Positions 51,883-57,940 of a stretch of 64,000 bases of DNA are shown piece after piece. The stretch is from Bacteroidaceae bacterium (GTDB lineage Bacteria; Bacteroidota; Bacteroidia; Bacteroidales; Bacteroidaceae), in assembly GCA_017536765.1 (NCBI GenBank), contig JAFXGV010000026.1:1-64000 (forward strand), given 5' to 3'. A program made the position numbers and the translations under genes. Each line of letters begins with the position of its first letter. Position 1 is the first letter of the stretch. The notes under the pieces are model-generated. The model did not search any database and was not told the DNA's origin. It worked only from the letters and a program-made list of their open reading frames with translations.

Positions 51883-53082
51883 TCACTCAGAGAAATAGAG
51901 TTCGTTCAACGGCTCCGAGCTATCGCGAACAACTACAAAAGCAGAGTAACGGCTGTCGGCAGTAACGGGCGACAGCGGCATATAACCGCTCACCACTCTA
52001 CTCTTCTCCATACAAAGCGGATGACGGGCACTCATTTCATTGTGCACCGTTAGTGCCTCTCCGTTGCTTTTGTAATACGGCACTCTAAAACAGCCCTGCG
52101 AGCCTGCTGCAATATATTTATCGAAGAATATGCGCGACACTGCGCCCATATTCATTCTGAGGTTGAGCTCCACGCAGGGGTTCAGGCGATAGCCGCCGGC
52201 AGTGCGGTATATAAGCATATCCACGCCCACATAACCATCGTAGCCTACGGGCAAGAGCAGGCGGGATAGTTCTGCCGCGAGTTTCTTTTTTACATCGGCA
52301 AGAACATCAAAAGAGATATATTCACACAAGAAATTCTCTATTGCTGCATCGGATGCAAGGATATTGCCAGAATAGGAGCCGCCATCGCAGGTAAAAAGCG
52401 AATAACCGGCAAACGCAGCCACACCACCCGATACGGTGAATTCCATTGCAAAATCTACCACCTTATCCAAATAGCGCTCGCACACCACGCCGCCCTGGCG
52501 CTTTATCACACCCATATAAAAATGTTCCACAGGCACCTCCACGCGCCCTATGCCCCAGGCAATTCCCTTGCCACTACCCGACCACGGAGCCTTTATCACC
52601 GAACGGGGCATACTGTTTATGAAGGCAGCCACATCGGCGGGAAAAGATGTATATAGCGGAATTTCGGGGGTATCTATCCCTGCCGAGCGCAATGATTGCA
52701 TAACATCTATTGCCACCCGACGATTGGAAAGCGCGCGTATATGCTCCAAAACTTGCTGCGCAGGGAGCAGCGAATCGTTCACGCCCATATCCCTGAAACG
52801 GCGTTTCATCTGTGCGCTCCAGCCCCACGGAGCAACGGCAGTCATCTGCTGCAACGGAGGAGCCATACACGCAGCAGCAATGGTAAAATTTTGCGACATA
52901 CGCGTCGCATACTCCAAGTGAATGTTTGATGGTACAAGAACACTATCACACTCGGCCGCATACCACAATGGCAATGCTGCCAAATCGCGTGATATGGCAC
53001 GTGCCATAGGCGGCGGACAGTAATTGCTATTGCCGTCGGCCAGGGCCAAATCGTTCTCGGGGTTGAAGATATGCAGTTTCAT
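51883..53082 (-). CDS. ATP-grasp-like protein of unknown function
   Basis: The product is 399 residues, cytosolic. The second half resembles an ATP-grasp fold: SVIKAPWSGSGKGIAWGI (Lys and flexible Gly loop for ATP), VCERYLDKVVDFAMEFTVSG and GYVGVDMLIYRTAGGYRLNP, then VELNLRMNMGAVSR with the acidic-plus-Asn metal site. The N-terminal MKLHIFNPENDLALADG is a conspicuous motif. No substrate or pathway is known to me. ATP-grasp enzymes join a carboxylate to an amine or thiol. Monocistronic, with a TATCTTCG -7 element at 53144-53151. Confidence 0.65.
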   Translation of the reverse strand: MKLHIFNPENDLALADGNSNYCPPPMARAISRDLAALPLWYAAECDSVLVPSNIHLEYATRMSQNFTIAAACMAPPLQQMTAVAPWGWSAQMKRRFRDMGVNDSLLPAQQVLEHIRALSNRRVAIDVMQSLRSAGIDTPEIPLYTSFPADVAAFINSMPRSVIKAPWSGSGKGIAWGIGRVEVPVEHFYMGVIKRQGGVVCERYLDKVVDFAMEFTVSGGVAAFAGYSLFTCDGGSYSGNILASDAAIENFLCEYISFDVLADVKKKLAAELSRLLLPVGYDGYVGVDMLIYRTAGGYRLNPCVELNLRMNMGAVSRIFFDKYIAAGSQGCFRVPYYKSNGEALTVHNEMSARHPLCMEKSRVVSGYMPLSPVTADSRYSAFVVVRDSSEPLNELYFSE

Positions 53083-53207: not shown

Positions 53208-53239
53208 CTTGCGCGGGAGAGTATTATTTACTACTTTTG
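53208..53239 (+). promoter_or_regulatory. Promoter of the rimP-nusA-infB operon
   Basis: CTTG (53208-53211) and TACTTTTG (53232-53239) are 20 bases apart. An AAGCG/CGCTT inverted repeat (53196-53210) overlaps the -33 box. Start of transcription near 53245. Confidence 0.6.
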
Positions 53240-53257
53240 CATTGTAAAGATGATAGT

Positions 53258-53282
53258 GAGGGGCCTGCAAGCCCCTCTTTTT
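53258..53282 (+). terminator. Leader terminator/attenuator candidate before rimP
   Basis: GAGGGGC (53258-53264) and GCCCCTC (53271-53277) pair around CTGCAA, followed by TTTTT (53278-53282): a textbook intrinsic terminator. It lies between the promoter and the first gene of its own operon, about 15-38 bases after the predicted start. A following CCCCTTGGGG (53292-53301) could pair with either arm and open it. Confidence 0.6.
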
Positions 53283-53323
53283 CATAAAATACCCCTTGGG
53301 GCATCATAATTAAAACAAACTAT

Positions 53324-53791
53324 ATGATTGACAGACAACAAGTAATCGACCTGACAAACGAATGGCTTGCCGACAAAGAGTATTTTTTGGTAGATGTAGC
53401 CATAAGTAAAGATGACAAAATCACGGTGGAAATCGACCACGCCGAGGGTGTGTGGATTGAAGATTGTGCCGACCTCAGCCGCCACATAGAGCAGGGGTTG
53501 AGCAGCGAAATGGATGATTACGAACTTGAGGTGGGCTCGGCAGGCCTGGGACAGCCGTTCAAGGTGCTGCAACAGTACATCAACCACACCGGCTTGGAGG
53601 TTGAGGTGCTCACTAAAGAGGGTAAAAAGCTCAAAGGTATTCTTAAGAGCGCCTGCGAGCAGGAGTTTGTGCTCACAATATCCAAGAAAGAGAAGATTGA
53701 GGGAGCAAAACGTCCGCAGATTGTCGAGGAGGATTTGCATTTCGCCTACGACAGCGTTAAATACACAAGATATATTATAAATTTCAAATAA
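53324..53791 (+). CDS. rimP: Ribosome maturation factor RimP
   Basis: A 155-residue factor for 30S subunit maturation. DITVEIDHAEGVWIEDCADL-like strand, SRHIEQGLSSE and YELEVGSAGLGQPFKVLQQY (family EVSSPGLDRPL region, altered) give the N-terminal alpha/beta domain; the C-terminal SH3-like domain follows. First gene of the rimP-nusA-infB operon, with a candidate attenuator in the leader. One base separates it from nusA. Confidence 0.92.
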   Translation: MIDRQQVIDLTNEWLADKEYFLVDVAISKDDKITVEIDHAEGVWIEDCADLSRHIEQGLSSEMDDYELEVGSAGLGQPFKVLQQYINHTGLEVEVLTKEGKKLKGILKSACEQEFVLTISKKEKIEGAKRPQIVEEDLHFAYDSVKYTRYIINFK

Positions 53792-53792
53792 A

Positions 53793-55055
53793 ATGGCAAA
53801 GAAAGAAGAAACAATCAGCCTTCTTGATACATTTCAAGAGTTCAAAGAGTCGAAAAACATCGACCGCACTACTATGATCAGCGTGCTCGAGGAGAGTTTT
53901 CGCAAGGTATTGGTAAATATGTTCGGCAGCGACGAGAACTACTCGGTTATCGTGAACCCCGACCGTGGCGACTTTGAGATACAGCGCCGCCGCACCGTGG
54001 TTGCCGACAACGAGGTGAAGAACAGCAATATGGAGATTTCGTTGAGCGAGGCTCAGCAGATTGACGACTCGTTCGAGGTGGGCGAGGACGTGAGCGAGAT
54101 TGTGAATTTTGCCGAGTTTGGCCGCCGCGCCATCCTCAACCTGCGCCAGACACTTGCTTCAAAGATTCTGGAGTTAGAGAAAGACAGCCTCTACAACAAA
54201 TACAACGAGCGTGTAGGACAGATTGTAAGCGGCGAGGTATATCAGATTTGGAAAAAGGAGCTCCTGCTTGTGGATGACGAGAACAACGAGCTCATTCTCC
54301 CCAAGACCGAGCAGATACCTTCGGATTTCTACCGCAAGGGAGAGAACGTGCGTGCCGTTATTGCCCGCGTTGACAACCAGAACAACAACCCCAAGATTAT
54401 CTTGAGCCGCACATCACCTATGTTCCTGCAGCGTCTTTTCGAGCTCGAAGTTCCCGAGATTAACGACGGCCTCATAACCATCAAGAAGATTGCCCGCATC
54501 CCCGGCAAGCGTGCCAAGATTGCTGTGGAAACATACGACGAGCGCATCGATCCCGTAGGTGCTTGCGTGGGTGTAAAGGGCTCACGTATTCACGGCATCG
54601 TGCGCGAGTTGCGCAACGAGAACATCGACGTTATCCCCTACACATCGAACATCGAGCTCTTCATCAAGCGTGCATTGAGCCCCGCCAAGATACAGAGCAT
54701 CACACTCGACGAGGAGAAACGTGTTGCCGATGTAAACCTCAAGCAGGAGGAGGTGTCGCTTGCCATTGGTAAGGATGGTCTTAACATCAAGCTTGCAAGT
54801 ATGCTCACCGACTACACCATAAACGTATATCGCGAGATTGACGAGCAGCAGGAAGATGATATCTACCTTGAGGAGTTTGCCGACGAGATTGACGAGTGGA
54901 TAATAGCAGCCATCAAGAAGATTGGCCTCGACACCGCAAAAGCCGTTCTCAACGCACCCCGCGAGGTTCTCATTGAGAAAGCCGACTTGGAGGAGGATAC
55001 TGTAGATCACGTAATCGAGGTACTCAAAGCCGAGTTTGAAGAGGACGAGGAATAA
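53793..55055 (+). CDS. nusA: Transcription termination/antitermination factor NusA
   Basis: A 420-residue RNA-polymerase-associated factor. N-terminal RNAP-binding domain (about 1-130), S1 domain (about 130-200; VGQIVSGEVYQIWKKELLLV) and two KH domains (about 230-370) with PGKRAKIAVETYDERIDPVG and GVKGSRIHGIVRELRNENID. It lacks the acidic C-terminal repeats of E. coli NusA, having only an acidic end. In E. coli NusA regulates its own operon, a point relevant to the leader hairpin here. Confidence 0.97.
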   Translation: MAKKEETISLLDTFQEFKESKNIDRTTMISVLEESFRKVLVNMFGSDENYSVIVNPDRGDFEIQRRRTVVADNEVKNSNMEISLSEAQQIDDSFEVGEDVSEIVNFAEFGRRAILNLRQTLASKILELEKDSLYNKYNERVGQIVSGEVYQIWKKELLLVDDENNELILPKTEQIPSDFYRKGENVRAVIARVDNQNNNPKIILSRTSPMFLQRLFELEVPEINDGLITIKKIARIPGKRAKIAVETYDERIDPVGACVGVKGSRIHGIVRELRNENIDVIPYTSNIELFIKRALSPAKIQSITLDEEKRVADVNLKQEEVSLAIGKDGLNIKLASMLTDYTINVYREIDEQQEDDIYLEEFADEIDEWIIAAIKKIGLDTAKAVLNAPREVLIEKADLEEDTVDHVIEVLKAEFEEDEE

Positions 55056-55087: not shown

Positions 55088-57940
55088 ATGAAGATAAGAC
55101 TAAATAAAGTACAAGGAGAGCTTAATCTGGGACTGTCCACTATCGTGGAATTCTTGCAGAAGAAGGGCTTCGAGATAAAAGAAGACCCCAATGCAGTTGT
55201 GCCCGAAGAGGGTTACAAACTATTGATAGAGGAGTTCAGCGCAGATAAGAAAGCTCGCATACAATCGGACAATTTCACCAAGGAACGCCAAAACAAGGAG
55301 AAGCCTAAGGCTGCACCCGTTGAGGCACCCAAGGCCGAGGAGCCTAAACCCGTGGTGAAGCCTGCGCCCGAGGCACCCAAGAAGGAGGAGCCTAAACCCG
55401 TGGAAGAGCCCAAGAAAGAGGAGCCCAAACCCGAGAGCAAAATTGTAATTACAGGCCGTATAGACCTCGATGCGTTAAAGAAACCCGCGAAGAAGGAGCA
55501 GCCCAAAAAGGAGGAGGCAAAACCTGTTGAGCAGCCCAAGCCCGTGGAACAGCCCAAGGCCGAGGAGCCCAAGAAAGAGGAGCCCAAACCCGTGGAGCAA
55601 CCTATGGAAGAGGAGCCCAAAGCAGAACAGAAACCTGCACAGCCCACACTCACACAACTTGAAGAGGTGGAGGCACCCAAGCTCAACATCATAGGCCAGA
55701 TAGACCTTTCGGCCATCAACCAATCTACACGCCCCAAGAAGAAGAGCAAAGAGGAGAAAAAGAAGGAGCGTGAGGAGAAAGACAAGCAGCGCCAGCAGCA
55801 ACGCGAGGCACAACGCCAGCAGAACAACGGCGGTGCACAGGGCGAGGGTGGCAAGAAAAAGCGTCAACGCATAAACAACCAGCGCGTTAACATCAACGAC
55901 GTGAAGGAGGGTGGCGAGCAGAACAATAACCAGGACTGGAGCGCCAACCGCAACAAGAACAACGGTGGCAACAACCCGTCACAGGGCAGCCGCCGCGACC
56001 GCGACCGCCAGCACAAGCGTTTCGACAAGAACGATGTGAACGAGGAGGATGTATCGAAGCAGGTACGCGAGACACTCGACCGCCTCACACAGCGCGGCAA
56101 GAACAACAAGGCCGCAAAATACCGCAAGGACAAGCGCGAGCTTGCCGCAGAGCGCCAGATGCAGGCAATGGATGCCGAGATGGCCGACAGCAAGGTGCTG
56201 AAGCTCACCGAGTTTGTGACAGCCAACGAGCTTGCAAGTATGATGAATATCTCTGTGACACAGGTAATTGCCACCTGTATGAGCATTGGTATGATGGTAT
56301 CCATCAACCAGCGCCTCGACGCAGAGACCATCAACCTTGTGGCCGAGGAGTTCGGCTTCACCACCGAGTATGTGAGCGCCGAGGTTGCCAATGCCATTGA
56401 GGTGGAGGCCGACTCCGACGAGGACCTGCTCCCCCGCGCCCCCATTATCACCGTAATGGGACACGTTGACCACGGAAAGACATCGTTGCTCGACTATATA
56501 CGAAAAGCAAATGTTATTGCAGGTGAGGCCGGTGGTATCACCCAGCACATCGGTGCATACAATGTGAAGATGGAGAGCGGCAAGCACATCACCTTCCTCG
56601 ACACCCCCGGTCACGAGGCGTTTACCGCTATGCGTGCCCGTGGTGCCAAGGTTACCGACATTGTTATCATCATAATTGCAGCCGACGACAACGTGATGCC
56701 CCAGACCAAGGAAGCCATCAACCACGCTATGGCTGCCGGTGTACCCATTGTATTTGCCATAAACAAGTGCGACAAGCCCGCAGCCGATCCCAACCGCATT
56801 AAAGAGGAGCTTGCACAGCTCAATATGCTTGTTGAGGACTGGGGCGGAAAGTACCAGTCGCAGGAGATTTCGGCAAAGAAAGGTATGGGCGTTGAGGAGC
56901 TTATGGAGAAGGTTCTCTTGGAGGCCGAGATGCTCGACCTCAAAGCAAACCCCAACCGCAAGGCAACCGGTTCCATCATTGAATCTACACTGGACAAGGG
57001 CCGTGGATATGTAGCCACCGTACTTGTGCAGAACGGTACACTCAAGGTGGGCGACATTGTGGTTGCCGGTACACAGTGGGGAAAGGTAAAGGCTATCTTC
57101 AACGAGCGTAACCAACGCATCAAGGGAGTGGCACCTGCCGAGCCCGCACTCATACTGGGACTCAACGGCGCACCCACCGCAGGTGACACATTCAATGTGG
57201 TGGAGAGCGAGCGCGAGGCACGCGAAATCACAAGCAAGCGCGAGCAGTTGCAGCGCGAGCAAGGCCTGCGCACACAGAAGATGCTTACACTCGACGAGGT
57301 GGGCCGCCGCATTGCACTTGGTAACTTCCAGACACTCAACATCATTGTTAAGGGCGACGTTGACGGCTCTATCGAGGCGTTGAGCGACTCACTCATAAAG
57401 CTATCTACCGAGACTATACAGATAAACGTAATCCACAAAGCTGTGGGACAGATTTCAGAGAGCGACGTGAGCCTCGCCGCAGCATCGGATGCCATTATCG
57501 TGGGCTTCCAGGTGCGCCCCTCTGTAACAGCACGCAAGGTAGCCGAGAACGAGGGTGTGGATATTCGCATCTACTCAATCATCTACGATGCCATCGAGGA
57601 GGTGAAGGCCGCTATGGAGGGTATGCTTGCTCCCATTGTGAAGGAGGAGGTTACTGCTACCATCGAGGTGCGCGAAACATTCCACATCAGCAAGGTGGGT
57701 ACCGTTGCCGGCTGTATGGTGCGCGAGGGTAAGGTGAAACGTACCGACCGTGCACGCCTCATACGCGATGGTATTGTAATACACACCGGCAACCTTGCAG
57801 CCCTCAAACGCTTCAAGGATGATGTGAAGGAGGTTGGTACCAACTTTGAGTGCGGTATCAGCTTGCAGAACCAGGACGACATCAAGGTGGGCGATATTAT
57901 TGAGACCTTTGTTGAGGTGGAGGTTAAGCAGAAGCTTTAA
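55088..57940 (+). CDS. infB: Translation initiation factor IF-2
   Basis: A 950-residue GTPase that delivers initiator tRNA. IF2_N (about 1-60) is followed by a long Pro/Lys/Glu-rich disordered linker (about 65-200) and a basic Gln/Asn/Arg stretch (about 205-330). The GTPase begins at [19 protein letters not shown] (G1 near residue 458), with DTPGHEAF (G3) and NKCDKP (G4). Domains II-IV follow, ending VEVEVKQKL. The linker is typical of Bacteroidota IF-2 in nature but variable in length. Confidence 0.98.

Follow-up and report, generated by a model that had tools for sequence, protein, structure and literature searches.

A candidate promoter-proximal attenuator in the rimP-nusA-infB leader of Bacteroidota

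Organization of the rimP-nusA-infB leader

The window analysed here is a stretch of 64,000 nucleotides from a Bacteroidaceae genome in which rimP, nusA and infB follow one another on the plus strand (Table 1). This gene order had been stated in an earlier annotation made from the letters alone (the sequence-only reading) and agrees with the ORF list; the third frame is presumably infB (IF-2), judging from its sequence. A NusA match was present 3' of rimP on the same strand in all 166 loci long enough for testing. Upstream of rimP lies TACTTTTG, which we take to be a promoter-like motif of the Bacteroidota TAnnTTTG type, preceded by a TTG at about position -33 relative to the expected start. 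Judged from the position of this promoter, transcription would start at about 53243-53247.

The hairpin begins 18 nt downstream of the TAnnTTTG motif, within the leader, and consists of the 5' arm GAGGGGC (53258-53264), the loop CTGCAA (53265-53270) and the 3' arm GCCCCTC (53271-53277). Because the gene beyond the promoter is divergent, the structure at 53258-53282 is not the end of an upstream plus-strand gene. Given a start in the predicted interval, the short product would comprise about 35-40 nt; a predicted RNA of 39 nt folded with -14.6 kcal/mol (z -2.61), and 2 of 200 shuffled sequences folded equally well. The site was flagged independently by a pattern scanner. As this scanner reported 3 terminator-like sites in 1.2 kb where 1.3 were expected, a single sequence is weak evidence.

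Table 1. Features in and around the rimP leader of the window
Feature	Position	Strand	Basis or remark
Divergent gene across the promoter	51883-53082	-	ORF list
Predicted promoter	53209-53239	+	TTG (53209-53211) and TACTTTTG (53232-53239), TAnnTTTG type; from sequence
GATGA motif between predicted start site and hairpin	53249-53253	+	motif count across leaders versus shuffles
Terminator hairpin, 7-bp GC stem, 6-nt loop	53258-53277	+	sequence, pattern scanner, folding, conservation, outer-pair covariation
U-tract (T5), expected 3' end of the short RNA	53278-53282	+	sequence; pattern scanner
CCCCTTGGGG, earlier proposed as alternative-pairing element	53292-53301	+	judged outside the conserved mechanism
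rimP	53324-53791	+	ORF; RimP search
nusA, proposed feedback factor	53793-55055	+	ORF
infB (IF-2), presumed	55088-57940	+	ORF

Conservation of the leader hairpin

The RimP search was positive in 147 of 151 family, 190 of 198 order and 110 of 148 phylum genomes. Leaders were collected from the family (90), from a named set overlapping with the family (80), from the order (88, including one Bacteroidaceae leader, L171) and from other orders of the class (29). From 117 family matches that came without loci, 60 were retrieved; 60 order matches were added to those given as loci, and 20 of 73 matches were retrieved for the other classes of the phylum. Each leader was examined with a fixed rule that demanded a perfect stem of 5 bp or more, including 3 GC pairs, and 5 or more T in 8 nt, within the last 130 nt before rimP.

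The intrinsic terminator that the sequence-only reading had placed between promoter and rimP (7-bp GC stem, 6-nt loop, T5) is present in the window, and a terminator-like hairpin was detected by the fixed rule in 89 of 90 family, 79 of 80 named and 86 of 88 order leaders as well as in 25 of 29 leaders from other orders of the class. Dinucleotide shuffles yielded means of 5.7 of 90 (family) and 5.9 of 88 (order) under the same rule, and control leaders scored in 6 of 30 cases for secA and 2 of 29 for ppiC, the latter without one of 30 loci (L342), which lies at a contig edge. For L047, L163, L215 and L216 a looser search within 130 nt failed, and inspection by eye revealed a hairpin farther upstream; L260 and L261 have, again by eye, a hairpin with a longer loop. 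In other classes of the phylum, a rule allowing loops of up to 12 nt found the hairpin in 21 of 26 leaders (mononucleotide-shuffle mean 2.45). The remaining ones are near misses by eye (L362, L363, L368 and L369) or have their site beyond 130 nt (L386).

In these other classes the hairpin sequence is lineage-specific; one form, TCGCCC..GGGCGA, has a 5' arm rich in C. An arrangement opposite to the Bacteroidia core, CGCCC..GGGCG, was seen in L370, L372-L374, L376, L379, L380 and L385. As far as the sequences tell, what persists across classes is the place and the terminator form and not the sequence. The sequence-only reading had made its proposal depend on conservation of the hairpin, and conservation was found in the family, the order, the class and the other classes. 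Found in 89 of 90 family leaders when shuffles give 5.7 on average, the hairpin is beyond chance; it is conserved and very probably functional.

Spacing and associated motifs

Of the 89 hairpin-bearing family leaders, 87 carry a TAnnTT(T/C)G motif at most 45 nt before the stem. Family leaders have 8-28 nt between promoter and stem (median 20 nt) and order leaders as many as 36 nt (median 22 nt); with medians of 20-25 nt over the leader sets this distance is steady. The distance from stem to ATG is free: it varies between 8 and 107 nt inside the 130 nt that were scanned and reaches about 175 nt in L047; its median in Bacteroidaceae leaders is 23 nt.

GATGA occurs at most 28 nt after the promoter motif in 72 of 90 family and 74 of 79 named leaders, with shuffle expectations of 5.6 and 4.7, respectively. 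Elsewhere it was found in 6 of 88 order, 0 of 29 class, 1 of 24 secA and 0 of 29 ppiC leaders. In many of the ppiC (L323-L352) and secA (L293-L299) leaders the promoter-like motif reads TAnnTTCG instead of TAnnTTTG, as in GTATCTTCGTGCGC. At ppiC this form is conserved over many genera, and at both genes it is perhaps a promoter variant.

Stem core, covariation and hairpin strength

The window stem GGGGC..GCCCC contains a GGGc(...)gCCC core with a G-rich 5' arm. A test for the core GGG..C/G.. was passed by 78 of 90 family, 79 of 88 order and 24 of 29 class leaders and failed in several other classes of the phylum, where the arms are inverted. Outside the Bacteroidaceae, the pattern GGG(G/A)(A/G)C-N-G(T/C)(C/T)CCC fits 92 of the 112 segments from order and class. 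Being near-invariant, the core is silent on pairing, and its sequence itself may matter too. Just outside it, pair 8 was paired in 99 of 109 leaders, as GC, AT, TA, GT or CG, compared with a shuffle mean of 49.2, in a count where the inner four pairs are paired by construction.

RNAalifold returned no pairs on the raw alignment of 83 family leaders, which we attribute to variable loop lengths. Subsets of uniform loop length were used instead; they were picked by a core regular expression that fixes most core pairs by choice, and the informative pairs are the outer pairs and column pair 15-23. Dropped from the alignments were 9 of 109 (A2), 2 of 85 (A3) and 1 of 24 segments (A5). For 28 uniform leaders the covariation score amounted to 0.216 versus 0.119 (0 of 500 shuffles), and every slid register stayed at or below 0.108.

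The window hairpin has a folding energy of -13.4 kcal/mol, and the medians for family, order and class are -12.5, -15.2 and -15.4 kcal/mol. Ten terminator-like gene-end hairpins from the same window, a small sample in which some two-way hairpins are counted once per strand, showed a median of -29.2 kcal/mol with stems of 10-23 bp. Compared with these terminators of its own genome the leader hairpin is weak, a property that a terminator meant to leak should have. The T run has a median of 6 in Bacteroidaceae and comprises at most 4 T in 62 of 86 order leaders.

Searches for further copies and for known RNA families

A covariance model built from the family leaders (R2) gave a single match in the window's own genome at E ≤ 0.1, namely the rimP leader itself (E 2.5e-6). 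Across 41 family genomes R2 produced 23 matches, 17 of them at rimP, and none in 21 genomes; the six matches away from rimP include one site matched on both strands. R2 is specific but insensitive and its matches are no census; nothing among them suggests a regulon. A general model (R1) was unspecific, with many matches away from rimP.

Rfam searches over the window returned a single tRNA, with no match to a riboswitch, a T-box or a ribosomal protein leader, and the leader alone gave two matches, both far below the cut-offs. For RF01770, the gammaproteobacterial rimP leader, none of 41 genomes had a match above the gathering cut-off of 47 bits, and there was none in the window or in 10 related loci. 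Six weak matches to RF01770 were obtained in G000, none of them on the window's contig.

Alternative pairing and leader peptide

In the window, CCCCTTGGGG is complementary to both terminator arms, and the sequence-only reading had proposed that it could form an alternative structure whose helices, like that of the terminator, should covary in an alignment of leaders. The alignments support the terminator helix, whose outer pairs covary. The alternative is not supported: the window, L002 and L091 were the only ones among 19 distinct genus leaders in which pairing with both arms clearly exceeded shuffles. In L006, L101, L103 and L104 the downstream pairing exceeded about 90% of shuffles with one arm only. 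CCCCTTGGGG together with CATCAT (53292-53309) is kept in the nearest relatives, altered in L002 and unchanged in L091, and is absent from the rest of the genus. Because of the short median distance from stem to ATG, many Bacteroidaceae leaders lack room for a downstream element. With both-arm pairing confined to 3 of 19 leaders, a competing RNA fold is hence not the general mechanism.

Pairing of a 5' GATGAT with a downstream ATCAT, seen by eye in the genus, was best in L004, where 14 of 300 shuffles were equal, and ordinary in most leaders; it was rejected as a general feature. Conserved antiterminator pairing with a downstream or a 5' segment was not detected among the 19 genus leaders. The ATG within GATGA was the one ATG considered as the start of a leader peptide, and this idea was likewise rejected, as 115 leaders share no common frame or stop (a few rows without any stop were tallied as "before/in hairpin").

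The hairpin in genomes without detectable RimP

Eight Bacteroidales genomes (G151, G258, G340, G201, G225, G232, G314 and G241), several of them fairly complete (90-99%), gave no RimP_N match above the cut-off, and ten comparison genomes all matched in the same search. The search for NusA succeeded in seven of these eight genomes, and a terminator hairpin precedes nusA in six of the seven. Promoter and hairpin immediately precede nusA in G201 and G225, the latter with the typical GAGGGGAC-AAAA-GTCCCCTC. In G232, a hairpin of the GAGAGAGG/CTCTCTC type with TTTT behind it lies a short way past a TAGTATGTTTGC stretch and about 155 nt upstream of nusA. Three genomes of one genus (G151, G258 and G340) have a tRNA-Gln gene, then a terminator hairpin of another kind and then nusA; this hairpin could be the tRNA's own terminator. 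In G314 no hairpin was found in the 244 nt from nusA to the contig end. When the genus is counted once, four lineages without RimP have the hairpin, three of them clean. From these sequences, nusA rather than rimP seems to be the gene that keeps the hairpin.

The nusA matches in L354 and L357 contain one in-frame TAA each, an assembly error or a real break. A tRNA-Gln (anticodon ttg) also lies shortly upstream of the hairpin in the order rimP leaders L226, L232, L234, L243 and L255 and in L358-L360, which parallels metY before rimP-nusA-infB in E. coli.

Discussion

The leader probably contains the Bacteroidota version of the rimP-leader, an attenuator of transcription close to the promoter, through which NusA would exert negative feedback. 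RNA polymerase would start about 12 nt upstream of the hairpin, and the weak 7-bp terminator would free a share of the polymerases with an RNA of about 35-40 nt while the rest proceed into rimP-nusA-infB. At weak terminators of this kind, release is stimulated by NusA. A rise in NusA would then lower read-through and the supply of NusA, RimP and IF-2, a negative feedback that would operate without a competing RNA fold. Within this scheme we infer that termination takes place in the cell, that it is leaky and that NusA is the signal. The sequence-only reading had proposed a promoter-proximal attenuator of the nusA operon, and the proposal is strengthened by a hairpin that is conserved, covaries in its outer stem, is weaker than the ten gene-end terminators and is kept upstream of nusA after loss of rimP. 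Owing to these properties and to the reports from E. coli and B. subtilis, we regard NusA feedback as the best available explanation, with NusA dependence in Bacteroidota presumed by analogy. Several points speak against a NusA-dependent attenuator. The U-tract of Bacteroidaceae often comprises 6 T and could be efficient without NusA, the differences between the hairpins of different classes, extending even to a C-rich 5' arm, argue against one conserved protein contact, and G314, in which RimP was not detected, shows no hairpin before nusA in the stretch available.

A constitutive leaky terminator that merely sets the basal level of the operon is the most serious competitor, if an unlikely one: no antiterminator or ligand site is visible, and sequence alone cannot show regulation. 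However, a weaker promoter would suffice for this purpose, the hairpin is retained throughout the phylum and together with nusA after rimP loss, and feedback by NusA at the same operon has been reported for E. coli and B. subtilis. We consider it improbable that the hairpin serves mRNA stability or control of translation start with no role as a terminator. Its distance of 8-12 nt from the ATG in some leaders would suit such a function, but the spacing to the ATG is free overall (8 to about 175 nt), whereas that to the promoter is constrained, and a T-rich tail follows the stem.

The signal sensed could also be RimP or another cue from ribosome assembly in place of NusA. rimP is the first gene of the operon, and Naville and Gautheret name RimP feedback as a possible hypothesis in the main text of their paper (PMC2965389); the hairpin still stands before nusA in six of seven genomes in which RimP was not found, however, and we give this version very little credence. 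The same low standing falls to a competing-fold attenuator acting via CCCCTTGGGG or a leader peptide from the ATG within GATGA: good as the pairing with both arms is in the window genome, it recurs in so few genus leaders, and the GATGA reading frames have neither a conserved frame nor a conserved stop. Least probable of all is a small RNA acting in trans. The predicted product would be discrete at 35-40 nt, but conservation is limited to the stem core and GATGA, with a variable loop and variable flanks, and nothing points to targets.

The NusA attenuator favoured here is of a known type. In 2010, an attenuator termed rimP-leader was predicted upstream of rimP-nusA-infB, consisting of a terminator without antiterminator, with NusA proposed as the factor; the main text describes it for Firmicutes, Gammaproteobacteria and "the majority of species" and contains no word beginning with Bacteroid (Naville and Gautheret, PMC2965389). 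With that element, as described there, the Bacteroidota leader shares G-rich 5' and C-rich 3' arms of the form GGGc(...)gCCC, a T-stretch, a short distance to the gene and lack of an antiterminator. It differs in its GGGGAC/GUCCCC core, the GATGA motif of Bacteroidaceae and arms that can be inverted in other classes. RF01770 precedes the same operon and its 3' hairpin GGGCU..GCCC with U7 resembles that of the window, but the model comprises 102 positions and two hairpins. E. coli has GGGC...GCCC and T7 before rimP.

In B. subtilis, according to a review, NusA is autoregulated by intrinsic termination in the leader of its own operon (PMC12288461); NusA dependence is reported there and supposed for the window. 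For the gbs0413-0418 leader of Streptococcus agalactiae, RNA-seq data revealed a short RNA that ends 31 nt after the start at an intrinsic terminator, together with a long transcript from the same start, and feedback by NusA was proposed (PMC4448216). This geometry equals the one predicted here, but it stems from another phylum and was mapped by RNA-seq. Within the same phylum and at the same gene, a structured 5' element of rimP that is kept in other genera of Flavobacteriaceae and has no Rfam hit was listed for Flavobacterium psychrophilum, in the portion of the paper at hand without a mechanism, and is a possible counterpart of the present one (PMC9723704). The main texts of two transcriptome papers on Bacteroides thetaiotaomicron mention neither rimP nor nusA. 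In the literature covered, with supplements and most subscription papers outside its scope, we found neither a description of the Bacteroidota element as a NusA attenuator nor, in the parts of the sources available, a NusA titration in any member of this phylum. What is new is how widely the element occurs in Bacteroidota, its GATGA motif and its association with nusA where rimP has been lost.

Tentatively, the observations may be generalized to a phylum-wide nusA leader, in which a weak terminator would lie about 10-35 nt from the promoter and ahead of whichever gene heads the operon, be it rimP, nusA or nusA behind tRNA-Gln. Hairpin sequences would be swapped between classes with the geometry kept, polymerase and NusA would form the whole sensor, and GATGA would be a lineage-specific tuning part.

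NusA feedback of this kind would bring a loop reported for E. coli and B. subtilis into a phylum whose transcription control is little studied. It would also offer a very small test system in which promoter and stop signal are about 40 nt apart, with relatives that swap the hairpin sequence and natural losses of rimP, and these losses make it directly testable which product of the operon is sensed.
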